Source: Actinomycetota bacterium (GTDB lineage: Bacteria; Actinomycetota; Acidimicrobiia; Spongiisociales; UBA11373). From it: a stretch of DNA of 49,476 bases. The translations under genes and the position numbers were made by a program. Below the pieces are notes generated by a model. It worked only from the letters and a program-made list of their open reading frames with translations, was not told where the DNA came from and ran no database searches. The DNA lies in assembly GCA_020444505.1 (NCBI GenBank), contig JAHLKU010000015.1, forward strand, positions 1-49,476, written 5' to 3'. This document shows positions 8,748-24,827 of the stretch, piece by piece (positions within the stretch are counted from its first letter, which is position 1; every line of letters starts with the position of its first letter).

Positions 8748-8766
8748 ATGCCTCCGTGGGAGGCAT
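8748..8766. promoter_or_regulatory. Perfect inverted repeat upstream of peptidase-like lipoprotein gene
   Basis: ATGCCTCC-GTG-GGAGGCAT has 8-bp perfect arms and a 3-nt spacer and ends 17 nt before the start codon. It could be an operator or a 5'UTR hairpin. Candidate -10 boxes CATACT (8724-8729) and GATACT (8735-8740) lie just upstream, which would place the repeat in the transcript. Confidence 0.5.
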
Positions 8767-8783
8767 GGCACACAGGAGCGTCG

Positions 8784-10898
8784 ATGCGGCGGCGGAGGAT
8801 CTCATCGTTCGGGGTCGCGGCCCTGGCGGCCCTGCTCGTCGCCGTCTCCGGGTGCGCGTCGGACGGCCTGGGTCCGGGCCCGTCTGAGAGCAGCACGAGC
8901 ACGGCCACCACCTCCGTCCCTGCGACGGCCCCCACCACCACGACCACGACCACCACCACGACCACGGAGCCGGTAGCACCGAGCACCACGGCTGCCGGGC
9001 CGCCGTCGCGCCACGCCCGGTACGTGGTGTCGGACGACGAGATCGAACCGGAGGCGAAGCAACTCGCCACCGACATCGCCTATGCCCTCACCACCTACGA
9101 GGAGTCCGACGACGACTTCCTGCGGCTCTGGCCGATCGCGGGAGGCGGCGGCATGCTCTCCCTGCTCGAGGCGAGCCGCCCCCTGAGCTACCCGACGCAG
9201 TGGTCCCGGGGCGAGGTCGTCTACCCCCAGATGGGCGGGCTGACCGACGACCGGACCTCGGTGATGGTGGTCACCCGCCAGACGGTCGGCTCCGGCCCCG
9301 AACCGGCCTTCACGGTCGTCCGGACGCTCGACATCCGGCTCGTGAAGGGCGAATCGGGCTGGGAGTTCGAAGCGCTCGCCTCGGCCGGCGGCGTCTTCGA
9401 CAGCCTCGACGACCTGGTCCTCGCCGGCGCCGTCGCCGCCGATCCCCGCATCGAACTGCCCGACTCGGCCCGGCTCGACATCCTGGAAGGCGGCGTCTCG
9501 CCGATCCTGCTCGAGGTGATGGCGGACCTCGCCGACATCACCCCCTACGGCGTGACGGTGATGCACACCGGCCACCCGTACCACGTGTTCGAGACGAACC
9601 GGGTGAGCCACCACTCGCTGGGCCGGGCGATCGACATCTACCGGGTGGGCGACCGGGAGGTGGTCGACGATCGCGGTGCCAACTCCGTCTCGGAGGCCCT
9701 CGTCGAGTGGCTGTGGCAGAACTCCGACATCATCCAGGTGGGCAGCCCGTGGGACGTGGACGGGGGCCCGGGACGCTCCTTCGCCAACACGGTGCACCAG
9801 GACCACATCCATGTGGCCGTCATCGGCGCCAACGACCCCCGCTGGGTCCCGGCGATCGGCGACCTCGTGTGGGAGGACCTCGACGCCGACGGCATCCGCG
9901 ACGCCGGGGAGCCCGGCCTCGCCGGGGTCACGGTGCGGCTCTTCGACGACGCCGGCCGTGAGGTGGGGTCCATCCTCACCGACTCCAACGGCGCCTACTC
10001 GTTCCGCGAGCTCTCCTACGGCGAGTACCACGTGGAGGTCGACGTCCCCTCCGGCTACCTGGTGTCGCCCCGGAACCGGGGCTCGGACGATTCGATCGAC
10101 TCCGACATCGACGCCGGCGGCGTCATGGCGACGACCCTACTCGACCCGCGGGAGCACGACCCGAGTTGGGACGCCGGGCTCTACCGGAAGGCCTCGATCG
10201 GCGACTTCGTGTGGGCGGACGCCGACGGCGACGGCATCCAGGACCCCGGCGAGGGCGGCCTGGAGGGCGTCACGGTGCGCCTGTTCGACGGCACCGGCGC
10301 CCAGGTGGGCTCCATGGTCACCGGCGGCGACGGCGCCTATGCCTTCACCGGGCTGACGCCGGGCACCTACCACGTGGAGATCGACGTGCCCGCGGGGTAC
10401 GTCGCTCCCTCCAGGGACCGGGGCTCCGACGACGCGCTCGACTCCGACATCGACGCCGGCGGCACGATGGCGGCCACCACGCTGGTGTCCGGCGAGGACG
10501 ACACGTCGTGGGACGCCGGGCTGACCCGCCCGTCGTCGATCGGGGATTTCGTGTGGGAGGACGCCGACGGCGACGGCATCCAGGACCCCGGCGAGGACGG
10601 CCTGGAGGGCGTCACGGTGCGCCTGTTCGATGGGGCCGGACGGGAGGTGGGCTCGGTCGAGACCGACGAGGACGGCGCCTACGAGTTCACCGGCCTGCGG
10701 CCGGGCAGGTACCACCTGGAGATCGAGTTCCCCGACGGCTACGGGGCCTCGCTGCAGGACGAGGGCACCGACGACGAGGTGGACTCCGACATCGACGACG
10801 AAGGGGTGACCGAGGAGGTCGTGCTCGCCCCCGGCGCGGACGACCCGGACTGGGATGCCGGTCTCGTCCCGCTGCCGCCCGACCGGCGGTCCGGCTAG
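8784..10898 (+). CDS. Lipoprotein with M15-like peptidase domain and three SdrD-B repeats
   Basis: A 704-aa protein. The start is ATG 8784, with AGGAG 5 nt upstream. A lipoprotein signal ends in the lipobox VSGC, followed by a Thr-rich linker to about residue 70. The domain to about residue 350 carries the metal-ligand pattern of M15/DD-peptidases: SHHSLGRAID (H277, D284) and HxDHIH (H338-H343). Then come three tandem 114-aa SdrD-B/Cna-B-like units (from residues 357, 471 and 585), each opening with IGD(F/L)VW and a calcium-type DxDxDG loop and ending in SDIDxxG...WDAGL. It probably cleaves or binds peptidoglycan peptides on the outside of the membrane, with the repeats acting as a stalk. A truncated paralogue lies at 11124. 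Its stop overlaps that of the opposite-strand small lipoprotein (shared CTAG). Confidence 0.82.
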   Translation: MRRRRISSFGVAALAALLVAVSGCASDGLGPGPSESSTSTATTSVPATAPTTTTTTTTTTTEPVAPSTTAAGPPSRHARYVVSDDEIEPEAKQLATDIAYALTTYEESDDDFLRLWPIAGGGGMLSLLEASRPLSYPTQWSRGEVVYPQMGGLTDDRTSVMVVTRQTVGSGPEPAFTVVRTLDIRLVKGESGWEFEALASAGGVFDSLDDLVLAGAVAADPRIELPDSARLDILEGGVSPILLEVMADLADITPYGVTVMHTGHPYHVFETNRVSHHSLGRAIDIYRVGDREVVDDRGANSVSEALVEWLWQNSDIIQVGSPWDVDGGPGRSFANTVHQDHIHVAVIGANDPRWVPAIGDLVWEDLDADGIRDAGEPGLAGVTVRLFDDAGREVGSILTDSNGAYSFRELSYGEYHVEVDVPSGYLVSPRNRGSDDSIDSDIDAGGVMATTLLDPREHDPSWDAGLYRKASIGDFVWADADGDGIQDPGEGGLEGVTVRLFDGTGAQVGSMVTGGDGAYAFTGLTPGTYHVEIDVPAGYVAPSRDRGSDDALDSDIDAGGTMAATTLVSGEDDTSWDAGLTRPSSIGDFVWEDADGDGIQDPGEDGLEGVTVRLFDGAGREVGSVETDEDGAYEFTGLRPGRYHLEIEFPDGYGASLQDEGTDDEVDSDIDDEGVTEEVVLAPGADDPDWDAGLVPLPPDRRSG
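9852..10877 (+). repeat. Three 342-bp tandem units encoding SdrD-B-like domains
   Basis: Units begin at about 9852, 10194 and 10536, exactly 342 bp (114 codons) apart. Units 2 and 3 are nearly identical over their first 95 bases, which suggests recent duplication; unit 1 is more diverged. Confidence 0.85.
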
Positions 10899-11123: not shown

Positions 11124-12221
11124 ATGGGCCCAGGCACCGCGGTACCCCGGAGATCGACGCCCGGCCTCCAGTTCCAGTCGAGGATCCTGAGGCTCCTCAG
11201 GCTCGGGCTCGTCCTGGTGGTCGGCCTGCTCGCCGTGGCCATGACCGACACGGCGCGCTCGCCGGCGCCGCCGGCCCCGGCGGCTGCCTCCACGTCCACC
11301 GTCGCAGCCGCCACGACCGCCGCTCCGGCCACCTCGCTCGCGGCCTCGGCGTCGACCACGTCGGCGCCCGAGGACCCGTCGCCGCCGCCGCTCGCGGCCC
11401 GCTACGTGGTCCCCGACACCGAGATCGAGCCGGAGATGAAGCAGCTCGCCGTGGACGTCGCCTACGCGCTGACCAGCTACGAGCAGTCCGACGACCCGGC
11501 GGAGCGCTTCTCGGACATCGCCGGCACGGCGGGCGCCGATGTCCTGGCGGCCGCCGGCGAGCCGCTCACTCACGCAGGGCAGTGGTCGCGCGGCGACGTC
11601 GTCTACCCGCAGATGGGCGGCCTGAAGGACGGCAAGGCGTCGGTGATGGTGGTGACGCGGCAGTCGGTGGGGAGGGGCGCCGAGCCGGCGTACTCGGTGG
11701 TGCGCACGCTCGACATCCGGCTCGTGACGGGGGAGTCCGGGTGGGAGTTCGACGAACTTGCCTCGGCCGGGGGGAGGTTCGGCGACGTGGAGGACCTGGC
11801 ACTCGCCCATGCCGTGGCCTCGGACCCGCGCATCGAGATGCCCGACTCCGCCCGGCTCGACATCGTGGCCGGCGAGGTCTCGCCGGTCCTGCTCGGGTTG
11901 ATGGCGGACCTCGCCGAGGTCACCCCCTACGGCGTCACCGTGATGATGACGGGGCACCCGTACCACGTGTTCGGGACCGACCGCGTCAGCCATCACACCA
12001 TCGGCAGGGCCATCGACATCTACCGGGTGGGCGACGACCTGGTGGTCGACGACCGGGACGACGGCTCCGCCGCCCGGGCGATCGCCGAGTGGCTGTACGC
12101 GCGGTCCGACGTGGTGCAGGTGGGCAGCCCGTGGGACCTCGACGGCGACGGCGACGACCGGTCGTTCGCGGACCTGGTCCACCAGGACCACATCCATGTC
12201 GCCGTGGTGGGGGAGTCCTGA
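11124..12221 (+). CDS. Exported M15-like peptidase domain protein, paralogue without SdrD repeats
   Basis: A 365-aa protein with an N-terminal hydrophobic segment (about 22-40), an Ala/Pro/Thr/Ser linker to about 90, and one domain that matches the domain of the gene at 8784 almost throughout: RYVVxDxEIEPExKQLA, QWSRGxVVYPQMGGL, VVRTLDIRLV, SHHxxGRAIDIYRVGD, and a terminal HQDHIHVAV. The same H...D...HxDHIH metal-ligand pattern is kept. It lacks both the lipobox cysteine and the C-terminal repeats, so the tandem pair has diverged in anchoring. A leaderless start is likely. Confidence 0.8.
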   Translation: MGPGTAVPRRSTPGLQFQSRILRLLRLGLVLVVGLLAVAMTDTARSPAPPAPAAASTSTVAAATTAAPATSLAASASTTSAPEDPSPPPLAARYVVPDTEIEPEMKQLAVDVAYALTSYEQSDDPAERFSDIAGTAGADVLAAAGEPLTHAGQWSRGDVVYPQMGGLKDGKASVMVVTRQSVGRGAEPAYSVVRTLDIRLVTGESGWEFDELASAGGRFGDVEDLALAHAVASDPRIEMPDSARLDIVAGEVSPVLLGLMADLAEVTPYGVTVMMTGHPYHVFGTDRVSHHTIGRAIDIYRVGDDLVVDDRDDGSAARAIAEWLYARSDVVQVGSPWDLDGDGDDRSFADLVHQDHIHVAVVGES

Positions 12222-14713: not shown

Positions 14714-15304
14714 TCAGCCGAGCCGCACGTCCCCCAGGTGCAGGTCGAGCACCGGGGCGACCCGTTCGACGATGTCCTCGAGGTCGGCGTGGGCCAGTGC
14801 GTCGAGGCCGACGAACCGCCGTAGGAACAGCACCCCGAGCATCTGCGCCGCCGCCAACCCCATCCGGAGGCGGGCGTCCTCCCCGCCGATGCGGTCCTGG
14901 TATGCGTCGAACACCGTCCGCTGCATGAAGTCGCGCAGCAGCGCCCTGGCGTGCTCGTTGGTGGCGGCCGAGCGGAGGAGGCCCTCCACGTTCGGGTTCG
15001 CCTCCATCGCGCCGAGGTAGGCCCGCGCCAGGCGCTCGCCGGGAGTGCCCCTCCCCGCCGCCATCGCGGCGGCGACGGAGGCCGGGATGGCCTCCACGTC
15101 GTGGGCGGCGACGAACAGCTCCTCCTTGGTGCCGAAGTGGTGGTGGACCAGCGCCGGGTCGACCCCGGCCCGCTCGGCGATGGCGCGGATCGTGGCGCCG
15201 TCGTAGGCCGAGGCGGCGAACTCGTCGCGGGCGGCGTCGAGGATCGCCCGCCGGGTCTCCCCGGGGTCGCCGGGACGCCTGCCGCGGCGCGGGGCGGGAG
15301 TCAT
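14714..15304 (-). CDS. TetR family regulator of the ABC exporter operon
   Basis: A 196-aa protein with an N-terminal TetR helix-turn-helix (residues about 15-62: TRRAILDAARDEF, then IRAIAERAGVDPALVHHHFGTKEELF) and a C-terminal ligand-binding domain of helices. It is the last gene of the four-gene minus-strand operon; its ATG overlaps the TGA of the upstream ATPase by 4 bp (ATGA at 15301-15304), so translation is coupled. By analogy with such operons it represses its own exporter until a toxic ligand binds. The palindrome at 17998-18015 is the candidate operator. Confidence 0.9.
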   Translation of the reverse strand: MTPAPRRGRRPGDPGETRRAILDAARDEFAASAYDGATIRAIAERAGVDPALVHHHFGTKEELFVAAHDVEAIPASVAAAMAAGRGTPGERLARAYLGAMEANPNVEGLLRSAATNEHARALLRDFMQRTVFDAYQDRIGGEDARLRMGLAAAQMLGVLFLRRFVGLDALAHADLEDIVERVAPVLDLHLGDVRLG

Positions 15305-16143
15305 GACGTGGCGGCTACCACCATCGCCTCCTCGAGGGTGGCGTGGCCGGTGGTCACCTCTGCGTCGACGCCGGCGGCCCGCAACGCCGCCCCGACCTCG
15401 CCGGTGGTGGCGCCGGGCACCCGCAGCGCCCTGCCCGCCAGGGTGGCGGCGAGGCCGGCGTCCTCGATGACCCCGAAGGCGGCCTCCCAGCGGTCGGTGG
15501 TCACCACGACGGCCTCGAGGGAGCCCACGATGTCCCGCTCGCTGCCGCGCCCGACGACGGTGCCCCTGGCCATCAGGATCAGCCGGTCGGCCTGCCGGGC
15601 TTCGTCCATGTAGTGGGTGGTCACCAGGACGGCGACGCCCCGCTCGGCCTGGGCCCGGATCTCCTCCCACAGCCGCGCTCTCGACAGCGGGGCGACCCCG
15701 GAGGTCGGCTCGTCCAGGATGAGCAGGTCGGGGCGATGCTGCAGCGCGGCGGCGAACGCCACGCGCCGCTGGACACCCAGCGACAGGTTGCCGACCAGCC
15801 GGCCGCCGGCACCGGCCGGCGTGTCGGTCGGCGGCACGCCGAACACTCCGGCGGAGAACTCCATGTTCTCCGCTGCGGTGAGGTCCCTCCAGAGCCCGAG
15901 GCTCTGCGGCACGTACCCGATGCGGAGCCGGGTGGCCCGCCCCGGCGGCTCCCCGAACAGGGTGACGGAGCCCGAGGTGGGCCGCAGCAGCCCCAGGATC
16001 ATCCGCATCAGCGTGGTCTTGCCCGCGCCGTTGGCGCCCAGCACCCCGACCACCTCGCCGGGGCCCACCTCGAGGTCCACGGCGTCGACGGCGGTGAACG
16101 ACCCGAAGCGGCGGGTGACGGCACGTGTCTCGACGACGGTCAT
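15301..16143 (-). CDS. ABC-2 exporter ATP-binding protein, degenerate signature motif
   Basis: A 280-aa nucleotide-binding protein. Walker A GANGAGKTT, Q-loop YVPQ, Walker B LLILDEPTSG and H-loop VTTHYMDEA are intact. The signature motif reads LSLGV where LSGGQ is expected. A C-terminal extension (about 215-280) of alternating beta and helix resembles the regulatory tail of DrrA-type ATPases. Start and stop overlap its neighbours by 4 bp on both sides. It pairs with the ATPase at 16140, which has the complementary defect. Confidence 0.92.
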   Translation of the reverse strand: MTVVETRAVTRRFGSFTAVDAVDLEVGPGEVVGVLGANGAGKTTLMRMILGLLRPTSGSVTLFGEPPGRATRLRIGYVPQSLGLWRDLTAAENMEFSAGVFGVPPTDTPAGAGGRLVGNLSLGVQRRVAFAAALQHRPDLLILDEPTSGVAPLSRARLWEEIRAQAERGVAVLVTTHYMDEARQADRLILMARGTVVGRGSERDIVGSLEAVVVTTDRWEAAFGVIEDAGLAATLAGRALRVPGATTGEVGAALRAAGVDAEVTTGHATLEEAMVVAATS

Positions 16144-16940
16144 CGGGACGCCTCCTCCTCGGCGAGGCCGGCGGCGATCAGCACGTCCTCCAGCGTGGGC
16201 GCGACCCCGTCGGGTGATCCGTCCGGGACCCACTCCCTCCAGCGGCGTCCCTGCCGCCAGGCGCGCGACCGGTCTGCGGGCTCGTCCACCACCACCACCG
16301 AGCCCGGCAGCGACGCCCGCACCTCGTCGGGCGTGCCCGCCACCAGGCTCCGGCCCCGGTGGAGGACGGTGACGGACGAAGCCCGCTCCGACTCGTCCAG
16401 GTAGGCGGACGACACCACCACCGCCGCGCCGCCGGTGGCTGCTGCGCCGATGAGGCGCCACAGGTCGCTGCGGCTCACCGGGTCCACGCCGGTGGTCGGC
16501 TCGTCCAGGATGAGCAGGTCCGGGGAGTGGAGCATGGCCCCGACGACGGCCAGTTTGCGGCGCATGCCGCCGGAGAGGTCGCCGGCGAGCCTGCCGGTGA
16601 AGGGGGCCAGGCCGGTGCGCTCCAGCAGGGGCGCCGCGGCGGCGGCGATGTCGGGCACCCGGTAGGCGCCGCCGGTGAACGAGAGGTTCTCGGCGACGGT
16701 GAGGTCGTCGAACACCCCGCCGGCGGCGGGGACGTAGCCGATGCGGCGCCGCTCCGGGGCGGTCACCGACCCCTCGTGGCGGATCGGGATGCCGGCCAGC
16801 ACCCGGAGCAGGGTGGTCTTGCCCGCACCGTCGCCGCCGACCACGGCGCTCACGCGGTGCGGCTCTGCCGCCAGGCTCACGTCTTCCACCGCGGTCGTGT
16901 GCCCGAAGCGCACCGTGAGGTGCTCGACGCCCCAGGTCAT
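16140..16940 (-). CDS. ABC-2 exporter ATP-binding protein, H-loop His replaced
   Basis: A 266-aa nucleotide-binding protein with Walker A GGDGAGKTT, a canonical signature LSGGM, and Walker B LLILDEPTTGVDP. The switch region reads VVSSAYLDESE, so the conserved H-loop histidine is Ala. It overlaps the permease gene upstream (16937-16940) and the second ATPase downstream (16140-16143), each by 4 bp. Together with its partner it would form one consensus and one degenerate ATP site. Confidence 0.92.
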   Translation of the reverse strand: MTWGVEHLTVRFGHTTAVEDVSLAAEPHRVSAVVGGDGAGKTTLLRVLAGIPIRHEGSVTAPERRRIGYVPAAGGVFDDLTVAENLSFTGGAYRVPDIAAAAAPLLERTGLAPFTGRLAGDLSGGMRRKLAVVGAMLHSPDLLILDEPTTGVDPVSRSDLWRLIGAAATGGAAVVVSSAYLDESERASSVTVLHRGRSLVAGTPDEVRASLPGSVVVVDEPADRSRAWRQGRRWREWVPDGSPDGVAPTLEDVLIAAGLAEEEASR

Positions 16941-17997: not shown

Positions 17998-18015
17998 ATT
18001 CAACATGCGTTGAAT
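17998..18015. promoter_or_regulatory. Candidate TetR operator over the exporter promoter
   Basis: ATTCAAC-N4-GTTGAAT, with perfect 7-bp arms, is AT-rich against a very GC-rich background. A TAGTAT -10 box on the minus strand (18014-18019) predicts transcription start at about 18007, the centre of the palindrome, 24 nt before the permease ATG. The TetR gene at the end of this operon is the obvious candidate binder. Confidence 0.7.
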
Positions 18016-18072: not shown

Positions 18073-19056
18073 ATGCGGGCCATGGTCCTCGACGCCCCCG
18101 GGACGCCGCTCCGCGCGGCCGACCTGCCCGAGCCCGTGCCGGGCCCCGGCGAGGTCCGGGTGCGGGTGTCGGCCTGCGGGGTGTGCCGCACCGACCTGCA
18201 CGTGCGCGACGGCGAACTCACCCGGGCGGCCCTGCCGCTGGTGCCGGGGCACGAGATCGTCGGTGTCGTGGACGAGGTGGGGGCGGGGGTGGACGGACCG
18301 GCGCCCGGCGACCGGGTGGGCGTCCCGTGGCTCGGATGGACCTGCGGGGAGTGCAGGCAGTGCCGGGCGGGCCGGGAGAACCTGTGCGAACGGGCCCGCT
18401 TCACCGGCTACACCCGCGACGGCGGGTACGCAGAGGCGGCGGTCGCCGACGCCCGCTACTGCTTCCCCATCCCCGACGGCTACGACGACGTGGCCGCCGC
18501 CCCGCTGCTGTGCGCCGGGCTGATCGGCTACCGCTCGCTGCGGATGGCCGGCGAGGCCGGCCGCCTCGGGCTGTACGGGTTCGGGGCGGCGGCCCATCTC
18601 ATCGCCCAGGTGGCCGTTGCCCGGGGCGTGGAGGTGTTCGCCTTCACCCGTCCCGGCGACCGCGAGGGCGCCCGGTTCGCCACCGGCCTCGGGGCCGTGT
18701 GGGCGGGCGGCTCCGACCAGGCGCCGCCGGCACCCCTCGACGCGGCGATCGTCTTCGCCCCGGTGGGTGCCCTGGTCCCCGCAGCGCTGGCCGCCGTCCG
18801 GCCGGGCGGGCGGGTGGTCTGCGCCGGCATCCACATGAGCGACATCCCCTCGTTCGCATACTCGCTGCTGTGGGAGGAGCGGTCCGTCGCGTCGGTGGCC
18901 AACCTCACCCGGGCCGACGGCATCGAGTTCATGGAGGAGGCGGCGCGGACGCCGCTGCGGGTGTCGGCCGAGGCGGTGCCGCTGGAAGACGCCGAGGAGG
19001 CGCTGCGCAGGCTGCGGGAGGGCGAGGTGGAGGGGGCGCTCGTCCTCCGGCCCTAG
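18073..19056 (+). CDS. Zinc-dependent alcohol dehydrogenase
   Basis: A 327-aa medium-chain dehydrogenase. Catalytic zinc ligands are Cys in CGVCRTDLH and His in PGHEIVG; the four structural-zinc cysteines are in [15 protein letters not shown]. The Rossmann motif is [11 protein letters not shown]. The overall pattern matches the AdhA-like Zn-binding alcohol dehydrogenase family acting on primary alcohols and aldehydes with NAD(P). The ATG at 18073 has no ribosome binding site but follows CACACT by 6 nt, suggesting a leaderless message. Its TAG stop shares CTAG with the convergent cydC stop. It is transcribed divergently from the ABC exporter. Confidence 0.9.
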
Positions 19057-20750
19057 GCGCCCCGCAGGCGGGCGTAGCGGCCGCCCGCCGCCAGCAGTTG
19101 ACGGTGGGTGCCCCGCTCGGCGACCCTGCCCTGGTCCAGCACCACGATCTCGTCGACCCGGTCGAGGCCCTCGGTGCCGTGGGTGATGAGCAGCACGCCA
19201 CGACCGGTCGACAGCACCTCGTCCACGACCGCGGCGGCCGTGGCGGGGTCCAGGCCGGCGGTGGGCTCGTCGGCGATCAGGATGGGGAAACGGGCCAGCA
19301 GGGCCCTGGCGAGCGAGATGCGGCGCCGCTCGCCCCCCGACACCGGCCGTCCGCCCGGGCCGATCGGCGTGTCGAGGCCGTCGGGGAGGCCGGCCAGCCA
19401 GTCCCCGAGGTGCACCTCGGCCAGTGCTGCGACGAGATCGTCGTCGCCGGCGTCGGGGTCGGCGATCGCCAGGTTGGCCCGCACGCTGGCGGCGAGCAGG
19501 TGGGCGTCCTCGGCTGCGGCGCCCACCACCCGGCGCACCCGCGCGGCGGGGATCTCTCCGGCGTCCACGCCGCCGACGGTGTAGGTGCCGCGTGCGAGGT
19601 CCCGGAAGCGCAGCAGGCCGGCCGCCACGCTCGACTTGCCGGCCCCGCTCTCGCCGACGAGGGCCACCGTGCGGCCGGGGCGCAGGTCGAGGTCCAGGTC
19701 CCGCACCGCGTGGTCGGCGCCGGCGCGATGCCGGATCCAGGCGCCGCGCAGCACCAGCGCCGGCTCGAGGTGGTCCGGGCCCCGCCCGTCGGGCTCCGGC
19801 ACCGGATCGGGCCGCGCCGCCAGCGCATCCAGCCGCCCCGCCGCAGCGACGCCCGGCCCCAGCCGGTCGAGGCCCGAGGGGAGGGTGGCGGCCGGCTCGA
19901 ACGCGGCGATCGCCAGCAATGCCAGCACCCCCACCAGCAGCGGGTCGAGGGCGCCGGCCGACGAGGCGGCCACCGCCACCCGGAGCACCAGCCACAGCGC
20001 CAGGCCGCTTCCCAGCGCCACCAGCGCCGAGCCGAGGCCCGACGCCCACGCCGCCCGGCGGGAGAGCCGCCGCAACGCGGCGTCGGCATCGGCCGCCCGC
20101 TCCAGCAGCCCGGGTGCCCTGCCGAAGGCCACGGCCTCGGCCGCCCCCTCCACCAGGTCCACGACCGCCCCGGCGAGGCCGGCGCGGGCCGGACCGAGCC
20201 GGGTCGCCGCCCACCGGCCCCACCGGGCGGCGACGATGCCCGCCGCGCCCGCGGTCACCGCCAGGGCTGCCGCCAGCACGGCTCCCGCCGACGGCAGCAT
20301 CAGCCCGGCGATCAGACCGGCGAGCAGACTCACGGCGGCCGTGACGGCGGCGGGCAGCAGGCTGCGGACCATGGACTCCTGCAGGTCCTCCAGGTCGTCG
20401 GCGATGCCGGCCAGCAGTTCCCCGGCGCGGTCGGTCTCCAGGCCGCCGGGGGAGAGGCGCTCCACGTGGGAGAACGCGTCGGTGCGCAGGCGTGCCGTGA
20501 GCCGCAGCGCGGCGCCGTGGGCGACGAGCCGCTCCAGGTAGCGGAGCGCAGCACGGGCGATGCCGAAGAAGCGGACACCGACGATGGCAACGGTCAGGTC
20601 CAGGATCGGGGGGTGGAGCCCTGCCCGGAGGATGAGGTAGGCGCCGGTGGCCAGCAGCCCGGCGCCGGCGGCGACCGTGCCGGTGCCGGTGGCCACCGCA
20701 GCCGCCAGACGCCACCGGTCCCCCCGCCACAGCGACAGCAGTCTCCTCAT
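19053..20750 (-). CDS. cydC: Thiol reductant ABC exporter subunit CydC
   Basis: A 565-aa fused membrane/ATPase half-transporter. The membrane domain has six helices with the CydC-typical VRFFGIARAALRYLERLVAH; the ATPase has Walker A GESGAGKSS, signature VSGGERRR, Walker B ILIADEPT and H-loop LLITHGTEG. CydDC exports glutathione or cysteine (or affects haem delivery) and is needed for cytochrome bd assembly. Here it is the last gene of cydABDC; its ATG overlaps the cydD stop by 4 bp. Confidence 0.93.
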   Translation of the reverse strand: MRRLLSLWRGDRWRLAAAVATGTGTVAAGAGLLATGAYLILRAGLHPPILDLTVAIVGVRFFGIARAALRYLERLVAHGAALRLTARLRTDAFSHVERLSPGGLETDRAGELLAGIADDLEDLQESMVRSLLPAAVTAAVSLLAGLIAGLMLPSAGAVLAAALAVTAGAAGIVAARWGRWAATRLGPARAGLAGAVVDLVEGAAEAVAFGRAPGLLERAADADAALRRLSRRAAWASGLGSALVALGSGLALWLVLRVAVAASSAGALDPLLVGVLALLAIAAFEPAATLPSGLDRLGPGVAAAGRLDALAARPDPVPEPDGRGPDHLEPALVLRGAWIRHRAGADHAVRDLDLDLRPGRTVALVGESGAGKSSVAAGLLRFRDLARGTYTVGGVDAGEIPAARVRRVVGAAAEDAHLLAASVRANLAIADPDAGDDDLVAALAEVHLGDWLAGLPDGLDTPIGPGGRPVSGGERRRISLARALLARFPILIADEPTAGLDPATAAAVVDEVLSTGRGVLLITHGTEGLDRVDEIVVLDQGRVAERGTHRQLLAAGGRYARLRGA

Positions 20751-22411
20751 CGCAGCGCCCCCGCCTCGGGGGCCGGGAGGCGCAGCACCCGCTGCGCCCG
20801 GCGCGCCGCTGCTTCGCGATGGGTCGCCACCACGATGGTGCGCTCCCCGGCGAGGCTGTCCAGGGTGTCTAGCACCTGAATCTCGGTGACCGGGTCGAGG
20901 TGGGCCGTCGGCTCGTCGAGGAGCAGCACCGGCGCGTCCCGGATCAAGGCCCTGGCCAGCGCCACCCGGCTCCGCTGCCCGGCCGAGAGCCCGGCGCCCC
21001 GCTCTCCCAGCACCGTGCCGGGCCCCTCCGGCAGCCGGAGCGCGAACCCGGCGCCTGCGTCCCGCAGCGCTGCGGCCACCCGGTCGTCACCGGCGTCGGG
21101 GGCGCCGAAACGGACGTTGTCGGCGATGGTGCCCGCAAACAGGTGGGGAGTCTGCGGGAGCCATGCGATCTGCGCCAGCCATCCGTCGGGGTCGAGGTCG
21201 GCGATGGGGATGCCTCCCGCCTCCGCGCGCCCCGCCGCCACCGGCACCAGTCCCATCAGCACGCCGAGCAGGGTGCTCTTGCCCGCACCCGACGGCGCCG
21301 CCACCGCCACGTAGGCGCCCGCCGCCACGTCGAGGGAGACCCGGTCGAGCACCGGGGCCTCCCTGCCCGGGTAGGAGACCGTCACGTCCGCCAGCGCCAG
21401 CCGGGGACGGCGGGGCGGGGCGGCCGTCCCGTGCGGCGTCGCGGGGGCGGGGGCGTCGAGCAGGTCCAGGATGCGGCCGGCGGCCTCCACCCCCTCGGCC
21501 GCGGCATGGAACTCGGCCGCCAGGCGGCGCAGCGGGACGTAGGCCTCCGGCGCCAGGATCAGCACCGTCACCGCCGCCTGCAGGTCGAGGCCGGCGCCGA
21601 GCACCCGCAACCCGACGGCCACCGCCACCACCGCGATGGAGATGGTGGCGGCCAGTTCGAGCGCGAGCGCCGACAGGAAGGCGATCCGCAAGGTGGCCAT
21701 CGTCTCGGCCCGGTGGGCCTCGGCGAGGCGCCCGAAGCGCCGGACGGCGTCGGCGCTGCGGCCGAACACCTTCAGCGTGGGCAGCGACCGCACCGCCTCG
21801 ACGAAGGCGCTGCTCAGGTCGGTGAACGCCTGCCACCGGCGCCGCATGCGCGCCCTGGTCGCGGTGCCGGTGAGCGCTGCGAACAGCGGGATGAGCGGGA
21901 GCGTGGCGGTCACGATCACCGCAGACCACGGGTCGAGGACGGCGAGCACCGCCACCACCCCGACCGGGACGATCGCCGCCAGCGCCACCTGGGGCAGGTA
22001 GCGGGCGAAGTACGGGTGGAGCGCCTCGATGCCCCGCCCTGCGGCCGCCGCCACCGCCCCGGGGTCGGACCCGGCGCCCCGGCCGGCCACCACCCGCTGC
22101 AGCAGCGCGGCCCGCAGGGCCCCTGCGGTGGCGTCGGCGCTGCGATGGGCCGTCACCTCGGTGGCCCAGGCGGCGGCGGCCCTGAGCCCGGTGACCGCCA
22201 GCAGGCCGGCGAGCGGCCCGGCCACGTCGGAGGTGCCCGCCCCATCGAAGGCGGCGGCGATCACCCTCCCGACGAGGAGGGCCTGGACGACGATGAGCGC
22301 CGCCGCAGCGACGCCCAGCCCCGCGGTGGCGGCCAGGAAGCCGCGCACCGGGCGGCCGAGCCGCAGCAGGCGCTTGTCGAAGGCCTGCCGCGGCCCGGTC
22401 CGCTGCCTCAC
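20747..22411 (-). CDS. cydD: Thiol reductant ABC exporter subunit CydD
   Basis: A 554-aa half-transporter with six membrane helices, then an ATPase with Walker A APSGAGKST, Q-loop WLPQTPHLF, signature LSAGQRSR, Walker B VLLLDEPTAHLDP and H-loop VATHREA. I place the start at GTG 22411, overlapping the cydB TGA as GTGA. The open frame runs 60 bases further upstream, but that part overlaps cydB and lacks family character. CydD pairs with CydC. Confidence 0.93.
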   Translation of the reverse strand: MRQRTGPRQAFDKRLLRLGRPVRGFLAATAGLGVAAAALIVVQALLVGRVIAAAFDGAGTSDVAGPLAGLLAVTGLRAAAAWATEVTAHRSADATAGALRAALLQRVVAGRGAGSDPGAVAAAAGRGIEALHPYFARYLPQVALAAIVPVGVVAVLAVLDPWSAVIVTATLPLIPLFAALTGTATRARMRRRWQAFTDLSSAFVEAVRSLPTLKVFGRSADAVRRFGRLAEAHRAETMATLRIAFLSALALELAATISIAVVAVAVGLRVLGAGLDLQAAVTVLILAPEAYVPLRRLAAEFHAAAEGVEAAGRILDLLDAPAPATPHGTAAPPRRPRLALADVTVSYPGREAPVLDRVSLDVAAGAYVAVAAPSGAGKSTLLGVLMGLVPVAAGRAEAGGIPIADLDPDGWLAQIAWLPQTPHLFAGTIADNVRFGAPDAGDDRVAAALRDAGAGFALRLPEGPGTVLGERGAGLSAGQRSRVALARALIRDAPVLLLDEPTAHLDPVTEIQVLDTLDSLAGERTIVVATHREAAARRAQRVLRLPAPEAGALR

Positions 22412-23436
22412 GACTTCGTGGTCGTGAACTGCTCCCTCGAGATCCGCTTCGAGAACACCTTGTACGACCATGCCTGGTAGCCCAGCACGATCGGGGTGAA
22501 GATGAGCGCCACCACCGTCATGACCTTGAGGGTCATGTTGGTCGAGGAAGCGTTGTAGATGTCGAGGCCGGCGACGCCTTCGGTGGTCGAGGGCATCACG
22601 GCCGGGTACAGGTACAGGAACAGGGTGACGGTCACCAGGACGATCGTCAGGCCGGTGCCGACGAAGGCCCAGCCCTCCCGCTCCCGCATCACGGCGAGCA
22701 CCGCCCCCACCGCGGCCAGGGCCACGAGGACCGAAGCGACCACGGCGGCGACGTCGGTGCCGTCCAGGTCACCGGCCTCGTTGAGGAACGTCCACACCAG
22801 GACGATCACGCCGAGGCCGGCCATGGGCAAGGCGAGCCGCTTGGCCAGCGCCTTGGCTGCCTCGGCCACCGTTCCCTCCGCCTTGAGGGCCAGGAACACC
22901 GCGCCGTGCAGCGTGAACAGCACGAACGTGGTGACCCCGACGACCAGGGCGTAGGGGTTGAGCAGCGTGAACAGGTTGCCCGTGTACTCCTTGGCCCCGT
23001 CGATCGGCACGCCGTTGACGATGTTGGCGAAGGCCACGCCCCACAGCAGGGCGGGGAGGGCGCTCCCGAAGAAGATCGCCCGGTCGAACCAGGCGCGCCA
23101 CTCGGGACGCTTGTCCTTGCCCCGGTACTCGAACGCCACGCCCCTGGCGATCAGCGCCACCAGGATCAGGAACAGCGGCAGGTAGAAGCCGCTGAACAGC
23201 GTGGCGTACCACTCGGGGAAGGCGGCGAACGTCGCACCGCCCGCCACCAGCAGCCAGACCTCGTTCCCGTCCCAGACCGGGCCGATCGTGTTGATCATCA
23301 CCCGGCGGTCGGTGTCGTCCTTCCCCAGGAACGGCAGCAGGATGCCGACCCCGAAGTCGAAGCCCTCCAGGAAGAAGTAGGCCACCCACAGGACCGTGAT
23401 CAGGAAGAACCACAGGGTGTTCAGGTCGAATTCCAT
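22408..23436 (-). CDS. cydB: Cytochrome bd ubiquinol oxidase subunit II
   Basis: A 342-aa protein with about nine helices and typical CydB motifs: FFLEGFDFGVGILLPF near the N-terminus, NTIGPVWDGNEVWLLVAGGATFAAFP, and VGVTTFVLFTLHGAVFLALK. It forms the quinol:O2 oxidoreductase with CydA. The ATG at 23436 has GGAGG 7 nt upstream. The cydA stop lies 11 bp upstream. Confidence 0.96.
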   Translation of the reverse strand: MEFDLNTLWFFLITVLWVAYFFLEGFDFGVGILLPFLGKDDTDRRVMINTIGPVWDGNEVWLLVAGGATFAAFPEWYATLFSGFYLPLFLILVALIARGVAFEYRGKDKRPEWRAWFDRAIFFGSALPALLWGVAFANIVNGVPIDGAKEYTGNLFTLLNPYALVVGVTTFVLFTLHGAVFLALKAEGTVAEAAKALAKRLALPMAGLGVIVLVWTFLNEAGDLDGTDVAAVVASVLVALAAVGAVLAVMREREGWAFVGTGLTIVLVTVTLFLYLYPAVMPSTTEGVAGLDIYNASSTNMTLKVMTVVALIFTPIVLGYQAWSYKVFSKRISREQFTTTKS

Positions 23437-23447
23437 CTCCAGTCCTC

Positions 23448-24827
23448 CTAGTACGCCAGCGCCTTGGCGACTTCGTCGGCCGTGGCCTCGTCGGTGACGC
23501 CCTCCTGGGCGTACTTCTTCATCAGGTAGACGTCGACGACGGCCAGCAGGCCGTAGAGCAGGGTGAACCCGATGAGGGTCACCAGGACCTCACCGGCGCT
23601 GACGCCGGGGGAGACCCCGTCCCTCACCAGCAGTTCGCCGTACACCACCCAGGGCTGGCGGCCGATCTCGGTGACGGCCCACCCGAAGATGTTCGCCAGG
23701 AACGGCAGGGCCAGCGCCCACACGGCGAGTCGGTGGAACCACCTGGTGTCGGCGATGCGCTGCTTCCACAGCAGCCAGGTCCCCACCGCGCCGAGCGCCA
23801 TGAGGGCGAAGCCGATGCCGATCATCAACCGGAACGACCAGTAGACGGTGCCGACCGGCGGGATGTAGTCGCCGGGCCCGAACTCCTCCTCGAACTCGGC
23901 CTGCAGCGGGTTGATGCCCAGCACCTCGCCGTCGAGCGAGTTGGTGGCCAGCAGGCTCAACGCCCTCGGGATCGCGATGTTGATGTGGTTGCGCCCGTTC
24001 TCGACGTCGCCGACGGCGAACAGCGAGAAGGCCGCAGGCTGCTCGGTCTCCCAGAGCGCCTCGGCGGCGGCCATCTTCATGGGCTGCACGTCGGTCATCA
24101 CCTGGCCCATCCAGTGGCCGGAGAACGCCACACCGATGCTGGCGACGAAGATCGCCACGGAGGCGAACCCCGCCGAGAACCGGTACACGGCGTCCTTGCG
24201 GTCCCGCAGCATGTGCCACGCGCTCGTGGCCAGCATCAGGGTCGCTGCCGTGAGGACCGCCAGGAAGATCGTGTGGATGAAGTGCACCCACGCCACCTTG
24301 TTGGTGACCACGTCGAGGAATGACGTCAGTTCGGCCCGGCCGGTGGCCGCGTTCACCTCGTACCCCACCGGGTACTGCATGAAGGCGTTCGCCGCCAGGA
24401 TCCAGAACGCCGACACGGCGGTGCCGATGGACACCATCCACGCCGACCACATGTGCTGCTTCGGGGTCAGCTTGTTCCACCCGAAGATCCACAGCCCGAT
24501 GAAGGTGGACTCCAGGAAGAAGGCAGCGAGGCCTTCGATGGCCAGCGGCGCCCCGAAGATGTCCCCGACGAAGCGGGAGTAGGCGGACCAGTTCATCCCG
24601 AACTGGAACTCCTGCACGATCCCGGTGACGACGCCGATGGCGAAGTTGATCAGGAACAGCTTGCCCCAGAATTTCGTGGCCTTCAGGTACTTGACGTCCT
24701 TGGTGCGGACGTAGAGGGTCTCCTGGATCGCCACCAGCAAGGCGAGCCCGATGGTGAGCGGGACGAACAGGAAGTGGTAGACGGTGGTGATCCCGAATTG
24801 CCACCGTGCCACGATCAACGGATCCAT
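23448..24827 (-). CDS. cydA: Cytochrome bd ubiquinol oxidase subunit I
   Basis: A 459-aa haem-bearing subunit. His18 in TTVYHFLFVPLTIG is the haem b595 ligand; WVHFIHTIF contains the b558 His region; QEFQFGMNWSAYSRFVGDIFGAPLA and GRQPWVVYGEL are family signatures. The segment between the conserved helices is short, so this is the short-Q-loop type usual in Gram-positives. It works as a high-affinity quinol oxidase under low oxygen or stress. Start ATG 24827 has GGAGG 7 nt upstream; the leader is about 24 nt. The palindrome at 24888-24901 lies at about -43. Confidence 0.96.
   Translation of the reverse strand: MDPLIVARWQFGITTVYHFLFVPLTIGLALLVAIQETLYVRTKDVKYLKATKFWGKLFLINFAIGVVTGIVQEFQFGMNWSAYSRFVGDIFGAPLAIEGLAAFFLESTFIGLWIFGWNKLTPKQHMWSAWMVSIGTAVSAFWILAANAFMQYPVGYEVNAATGRAELTSFLDVVTNKVAWVHFIHTIFLAVLTAATLMLATSAWHMLRDRKDAVYRFSAGFASVAIFVASIGVAFSGHWMGQVMTDVQPMKMAAAEALWETEQPAAFSLFAVGDVENGRNHINIAIPRALSLLATNSLDGEVLGINPLQAEFEEEFGPGDYIPPVGTVYWSFRLMIGIGFALMALGAVGTWLLWKQRIADTRWFHRLAVWALALPFLANIFGWAVTEIGRQPWVVYGELLVRDGVSPGVSAGEVLVTLIGFTLLYGLLAVVDVYLMKKYAQEGVTDEATADEVAKALAY

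Follow-up and report, generated by a model that had tools for sequence, protein, structure and literature searches.

Two adjacent ABC ATPase genes of an actinomycetotal contig carry complementary motif changes, and the question they raise is whether their products form one motor with a single hydrolysing ATP site. The stretch of DNA analysed, 49,476 nucleotides long, is called the window here. An earlier note on it had claimed that one ATPase (NBD2 below) keeps the H-loop His but has LSLGV as its signature, and that its partner (NBD1) has LSGGM but Ala for the H-loop His. In a head-to-tail dimer this was expected to give one complete and one doubly degenerate site, as in asymmetric heterodimeric exporters.

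The operon and the motifs of its two ATPases

On the minus strand of the window, the genes for an ABC-2 permease, NBD1, NBD2 and a TetR-family regulator follow one another in this order, and all four are intact and joined by ATGA overlaps (Table 1). The ORFs of NBD1 and NBD2 start with ATG, end with TGA and contain no internal stops. Beside the pair, no permease gene other than the one listed was found, and no adaptor gene was seen adjoining it among the neighbours scanned (TetR, alcohol dehydrogenase (ADH), CydC and CydD). In at least 13 of the 26 loci from the window's own class, whose flanks are short, the two ATPase genes are likewise followed by a TetR relative in the same orientation.

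Table 1. Coordinates of the operon genes, motif positions and candidate operator in the window
Feature	Position	Strand	Remarks
ABC-2 permease, 348 aa	16937..17983	-	Pfam ABC2_membrane_3, E 3.8e-36; first operon gene; ATGA overlap with NBD1
NBD1, A-type ATPase, 266 aa	16140..16940	-	LSGGM intact; Ala179 for H-loop His; Ala72 for Q-loop Gln; Walker A GGDG
NBD2, B-type ATPase, 280 aa	15301..16143	-	His177 and Q-loop Gln present; signature LSLGV; D-loop TSGVAP
TetR-family regulator, 196 aa	14714..15304	-	Pfam TetR_N, TetR_C_16; last operon gene; ATGA overlap with NBD2
LSGGM signature, NBD1	16563..16577	-	belongs to complete site
Ala179, NBD1 H-loop position	16404..16406	-	belongs to degenerate site
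Ala72, NBD1 Q-loop position	16725..16727	-	belongs to degenerate site
LSLGV signature, NBD2	15772..15786	-	belongs to degenerate site
His177, NBD2 H-loop	15613..15615	-	belongs to complete site
Ala151, NBD2 D-loop Asp position	15691..15693	-	belongs to degenerate site
Palindrome ATTCAAC-ATGC-GTTGAAT	17998..18015	.	14 bp upstream of permease start; candidate TetR operator

NBD1 reads GGDGAGKTT at Walker A, PA at the Q-loop, LSGGM at the signature, LLILDEP at Walker B, TTGVDP at the D-loop and SSAYLDESE around the H-loop position, and the corresponding motifs of NBD2 are GANGAGKTT, PQ, LSLGV, LLILDEP, TSGVAP and TTHYMDEAR. Both motif claims of the earlier note are borne out by these residues. 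NBD1 and NBD2 both retain the Walker B Glu. As for the composite sites, the defects are one-sided as claimed, and "doubly degenerate" falls short, since the Q-loop Gln and the D-loop Asp are also gone at the degenerate site.

To weigh the single changes, we read 40 stretches from the 62 other ATPase matches in the window's own genome, counting by eye and using a length-fixed alignment for the motif columns. The first signature Gly is missing in 17 of the 40, the Q-loop Gln in 13 and the D-loop Asp in 7, while the His stands in the aligned column in 35, is shifted in one more and is missing in 4. A GxDG Walker A was not found among these 40 domains. Because so many of them lack that signature Gly, LSLGV alone is a mild, weak defect, and we rejected it as a strong defect by itself. 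Strong evidence comes from the loss of the His and, most of all, from the confinement of the defects to one side.

Losses in related pairs and the proposed motor

We analysed 125 pairs from five sources, namely the window (1), its class (25), the genome_contigs sample (77), a search by permease (20) and E. coli (two proteins). For the class sample, NBD1 was matched at E <= 1e-40 in 27 of 296 genomes, the window's own included. The genome_contigs pairs came from the best 80 of 564 loci found by NBD1 alignment, where NBD1 was selected by its Walker A and by its Walker B/D-loop region and the H-loop played no part. The permease search of the phylum, which selected on no ATPase motif, matched 35 of 296 genomes and gave 31 fetched stretches with the 20 pairs, and an NBD2 search (12 of 296 genomes) was used for gene order only. 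Pairs were labelled A and B by gene order alone, before any tree. Loci in which the second ATPase is missing at contig ends (L036, L042, L056, L123, L160, L172, L181 and L184) were left out of the count, together with L161 (permease only), the decayed L069 and five single-ATPase loci (L185-L189). NBD2 was readable only at Walker A and the Q-loop in L022, L073 and L175, and NBD1 of L037 is in two pieces.

The H-loop His is absent from NBD1 in all 125 pairs, and the signature Ser, Gly and Gly, the Walker B Glu and the D-loop Asp are each present in 125 of 125. The Walker A Lys is there in all 124 domains where it could be read, and the Q-loop Gln in 81 of 125. NBD2 has the His and the Glu in 122 of 122 readable domains and the Gln in 125 of 125; its signature Ser remains in 47, the first Gly in 43, the second Gly in 119 and the D-loop Asp in 94 of the 122. 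Counted per composite site, the NBD1-pocket site has lost 354 of its 987 positions and the NBD2-pocket site 0 of its 994. Chance would not produce such one-sidedness, though several of the single departures are common. All 20 permease-search pairs have the same His pattern. The earlier note had named alignment with other paired ABC-2 ATPases as a check, and the outcome supports it; homologues intact in both subunits, which it had named as a counterexample, were searched for, and none of the 125 pairs has the His in both. The full SGG is retained in NBD2 of 19 of 76 readable genome_contigs pairs (from the best 80 of the 564 loci), so the universal half of the pattern is the His loss and not the signature.

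Relatives with a single ATPase give a different picture. The five such loci, found by the permease search and lying off contig ends, have GPNG and the His in 5 of 5 and LSGGM in 4 of 5, and no second ATPase was found within the roughly 10.7 kb fetched for each. L188 is partly intact, with the His and GPNG present but with an FSTG signature and Glu at the Q-loop. The loci can be arranged as a graded series, from single intact ATPases (L185, L186, L187 and L189) to pairs that have lost only the His, with NBD2 still reading LSGGW (L043, for example), then pairs with LPGG or LPLG, and then pairs that also lack the Q-loop Gln and the D-loop Asp, such as the window's. In the window's clade the Q-loop Gln is lost and the D-loop Asp is often lost too. 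Among E. coli pairs, OppD/F, NikD/E and CydC/D have the His in both members, with LSVG in CydD (length-fixed alignment); DppD yielded no usable domain for this comparison.

The motif changes could in principle stem from a redundant pump decaying neutrally or from a sequence error, and decay does occur in this group: in L069 (3929-5317) an NBD1-type ATPase is followed by a 103-aa permease remnant, and the rest of the stretch shows no NBD2. For the window this reading is scarcely credible, given that all four ORFs are intact, that the operon is kept in class relatives at roughly 44-80% identity and that the pattern recurs in loci of many phyla.

Based on the one-sided losses in the 125 pairs and the His kept in the five single-ATPase relatives, the two ATPases of the window very probably form an obligate heterodimer in which a single site hydrolyses ATP. 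The complete site would consist of Walker A, Q-loop, Walker B and His of NBD2 with LSGGM and the D-loop of NBD1, and would hydrolyse ATP. The degenerate site would consist of Walker A and Walker B of NBD1, lacking Gln and His, with the drifted signature and D-loop of NBD2; it would hold ATP as a standing hinge and hydrolyse it poorly or not at all. By analogy with NBS1 of Pdr5, ATP is probably retained in the NBD1 pocket during turnover at the NBD2 pocket. The channel would be formed by two copies of the single permease. That the two subunits dimerise, which of the sites hydrolyses, in what order the residues were lost and that two permease copies make the channel are all inferred, and we consider the explanation as a whole, an ABC-2 exporter with an obligate NBD1:NBD2 motor, split site roles and an origin by duplication, to be well favoured.

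Considering that NBD1 keeps both the Walker B Glu and the Walker A Lys wherever these were readable, the degenerate site may still hydrolyse ATP. A heterodimer in which both sites hydrolyse, the NBD1 His being dispensable and the other drift being tuning rather than inactivation, would also accommodate the genome_contigs pairs that retain SGG in NBD2 and the frequency of LSxG signatures in the window's own genome. Such a motor seems unlikely to us, as the contrast between the two composite sites implies that selection treats them very differently, the single-ATPase relatives retain the His without exception, and the window's clade lacks the Q-loop Gln as well and often the D-loop Asp.

That NBD1 and NBD2 are separate genes in the window, with only one permease gene found beside them, might instead suggest that each ATPase forms a homodimer of its own, the two working with different permeases or in different regulatory states. 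An NBD1 homodimer would have two His-less sites and an NBD2 homodimer two drifted-signature sites, and the two genes overlap translationally. Evidence for homodimers, by which the earlier note would have been contradicted, was not found; instead, both domains are fused in one chain in 29 of the 125 pairs, and we regard separate homodimers as very improbable.

The heterodimeric arrangement was further compared with AlphaFold2 models of two natural fusions, L110 (pLDDT 92.1, pTM 0.89) and L079 from Bifidobacterium aquikefiri (pLDDT 83.1, pTM 0.83). The L110 model aligned with ATP-bound ABCA4 (7e7q) over both domains (Z 30.7, 523 residues, 3.8 Å) and with ABCA7 (8eop) over 470 residues at 3.6 Å, and the L079 model aligned with ATP-bound ABCC4 (8j3z) over 435 residues at 3.2 Å. 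Although the models of the fused relatives would fit a head-to-tail NBD pair, apo chains (DppD 8wd9 and ABCB1 8avy) match about equally to ATP-bound ones, so that open and closed states are indistinguishable from these alignments, and full-length Foldseek alignments have rmsd values of 5-37 Å.

Family assignment and comparison with known systems

The best NCBIfam model for all three transport proteins of the window is RbbA, each protein matching its own portion (positions 4-226 for NBD1, 266-487 for NBD2 and 696-906 for the permease). Against the equivalog cut-off of 1050 bits, the three separate proteins score 192.7, 160.3 and 153.4 bits with NF033858, and the NBD-NBD-permease single chain is lacking, so the window system is not an RbbA equivalog. 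The YbhF/RbbA-type features, as defined from the sample analysed here (GxDG and SGG without the H-loop His in NBD1, GxNG and the His in NBD2), occur in the window and the 124 other pairs, except that one of 124 readable NBD1 domains (L083) has a GxNG Walker A. An ABC-2 permease also lies in the window's operon. By these sequence features, the window pair reads as a split, unfused form of the tandem ATPase family of E. coli YbhF and RbbA.

The two E. coli proteins carry the same complementary changes. In YbhF, the first of the tandem NBDs has LSGGM and Ser at the H-loop and the second has LPLGF and His, and in RbbA, NBD1 has LSGGM and Ala at the H-loop and NBD2 has LPLGI and His. YbhFSR shares with the window ABC-2 type permeases and an adjoining regulator gene, cecR, whose product we take to be of the TetR family. 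It differs in that its NBDs share a single chain and are accompanied by two permeases and by YbhG, an adaptor of the HlyD family. With two NBD genes and a single permease, the window system is not of the YbhFSR type in the strict sense. RbbA with YhhJ differs in that NBDs and permease form one chain, accompanied by a second permease. The TetR linkage together with the kinship to YbhFSR suggests efflux of a small compound.

A degenerate composite site beside a complete one is also found in Pdr5, TAP, TM287/288 and BmrCD, according to the portions of PMC7756269 and PMC8421411 used here. In Pdr5, the same portions place the changed halves in the NBD1 pocket, H-loop included, and in the NBD2 signature, which is the topology of the window. 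Among human degenerate sites, the signature is altered in all, and changes of the Walker B Glu come second, being frequent and not universal (PMC7756269, in part). By contrast with most asymmetric exporters covered by that review, the window's family has the Glu intact in all pairs read, a universal His loss and a variable signature. The likeness to asymmetric heterodimeric exporters that the earlier note had drawn thus stands as regards confinement of the defects to one composite site, and does not extend to replacement of the Walker B Glu. On these sequence features, we place the complementary one-sided defects as a variant within the known class of asymmetric exporters, of which the retained Walker B Glu would be distinctive.

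Importers of other families have similar patterns in the length-fixed alignment. E. coli LivF has SGG and Gln at the H-loop while LivG has the His and an AYG signature, and in RbsA the C-half has LSGG and Ser at the H-loop and the N-half has the His and LSIG; the C-half of RbsA differs further in having Arg for the Walker A Lys. The livF and livG genes were read at L230 725-2207. In the window's own genome, L205 and L215 appear from their motifs to be Liv-type ATPases, a group in which the LivF type has SGG and Gln at the H-loop and its LivG-type partner has the His and a changed signature.

Purified YbhF of E. coli is reported to show ATP hydrolysis in vitro, according to the portion of PMC7190983 used, so the role of each loss step would be assayable. 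In the corresponding portions of PMC7190983 and PMC9951867, the YbhF motifs, the switch motif included, are given as present and the missing H-loop residue goes unmentioned, and the present reading sharpens that annotation. Among the titles and abstract beginnings found by searching the open-licence PMC literature, there was no mention of complementary defects in YbhF or RbbA. This family offers a natural bacterial series bearing on why so many ABC transporters keep a non-hydrolysing ATP site.

Gene history, permease arrangement and candidate operator

For the domain tree, the trait columns were removed and 49 of the 125 pairs were used after thinning at 60% identity. The A and B domains almost separate, with the B rows of the window's clade placed beside A rows, at weak support, in the free tree. 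A second duplication within this clade, with B arising beside A, was suggested by that first tree and was rejected when the one-clade tests found better trees: a single origin was not rejected for A or for B (p-AU 0.922 and 0.942), and trees holding A and B each together outscored the free search by 52 log units. These tests were run without L008 and L004, two paralogue rows on long branches. On the pair tree of 121 pairs, the fewest changes required are 2 for the NBD1 Q-loop, 12 for the NBD2 signature Gly, 21 for the signature Ser and 6 for the D-loop, all at one site. In the raw counts, every pair without the NBD1 Q-loop Gln also lacks the NBD2 signature Gly (43 of 43), as if the two had been lost together; the claim was dropped because two Q-loop changes are too few for a test.

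The simplest reading of this history is one duplication, an early His loss in one copy and later, repeated drift of the opposing half-site. An intact ATPase would have been duplicated, and loss of the H-loop His from one copy would then have left the half-site facing it, in the other copy, free to drift. The His is gone from NBD1 in every pair and signature drift is partial; the His loss would have come first and the signature changes later.

On the same pair tree, fused and split states have changed at least 6 times, and the window's own 33-row clade includes 3 fused members (L079, L168 and L169). The common gene order in the genome_contigs sample, among the best 80 of 564 loci, is A-B-permease-permease, fused or split, and the order in the window's clade is permease-A-B. 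Another phylum group (L170, L171, L173-L180 and L183) has the order NBD1-permease-permease-NBD2. One permease per locus was found in those clade members whose flanks extend over several kb (L038, L079, L162-L165, L168 and L169), and the window genome gave one match to the window permease at E <= 1e-25, with 7 of 11 candidates scored. Because of this single permease per locus and per genome match, the window's clade likely combines a homodimeric permease with a heterodimeric motor, so that the asymmetry would lie in the motor alone; an unlinked or diverged second permease partner is a possible alternative. Taken together, we lean towards, with some reserve, an exporter family of many phyla with an ancient and unreversed NBD1 His loss, an intact Glu and stepwise erosion of one site, whose window branch probably has a homodimeric permease and carries its asymmetry wholly in the ATPases.

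The palindrome of Table 1 lies in the gap between the permease gene and a divergent zinc alcohol dehydrogenase gene. It is perfect, has no second copy in the window even when as many as 3 mismatches are allowed, and had no counterpart in 100 shuffles. The core TTCAAC-N4-GTTGAA is found 15-16 bp upstream of the permease gene in 4 of 26 class loci (L024, L030, L031 and L037), with differing spacers, and this strict pattern was not found in the other 22. The palindrome is a likely candidate for the operator of the operon's own TetR protein. Beyond the alcohol dehydrogenase gene, the region at 19053-24827 holds a CydDC-like exporter pair (Pfam) and ORFs that read, by eye, as cytochrome bd subunits; in a length-fixed alignment, Walker A of the CydD-like protein starts with Ala and not Gly. 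Two similar tandem ORFs occupy 8748-10898 and 11124-12221, the first of which has C-terminal repeated segments when read by eye.
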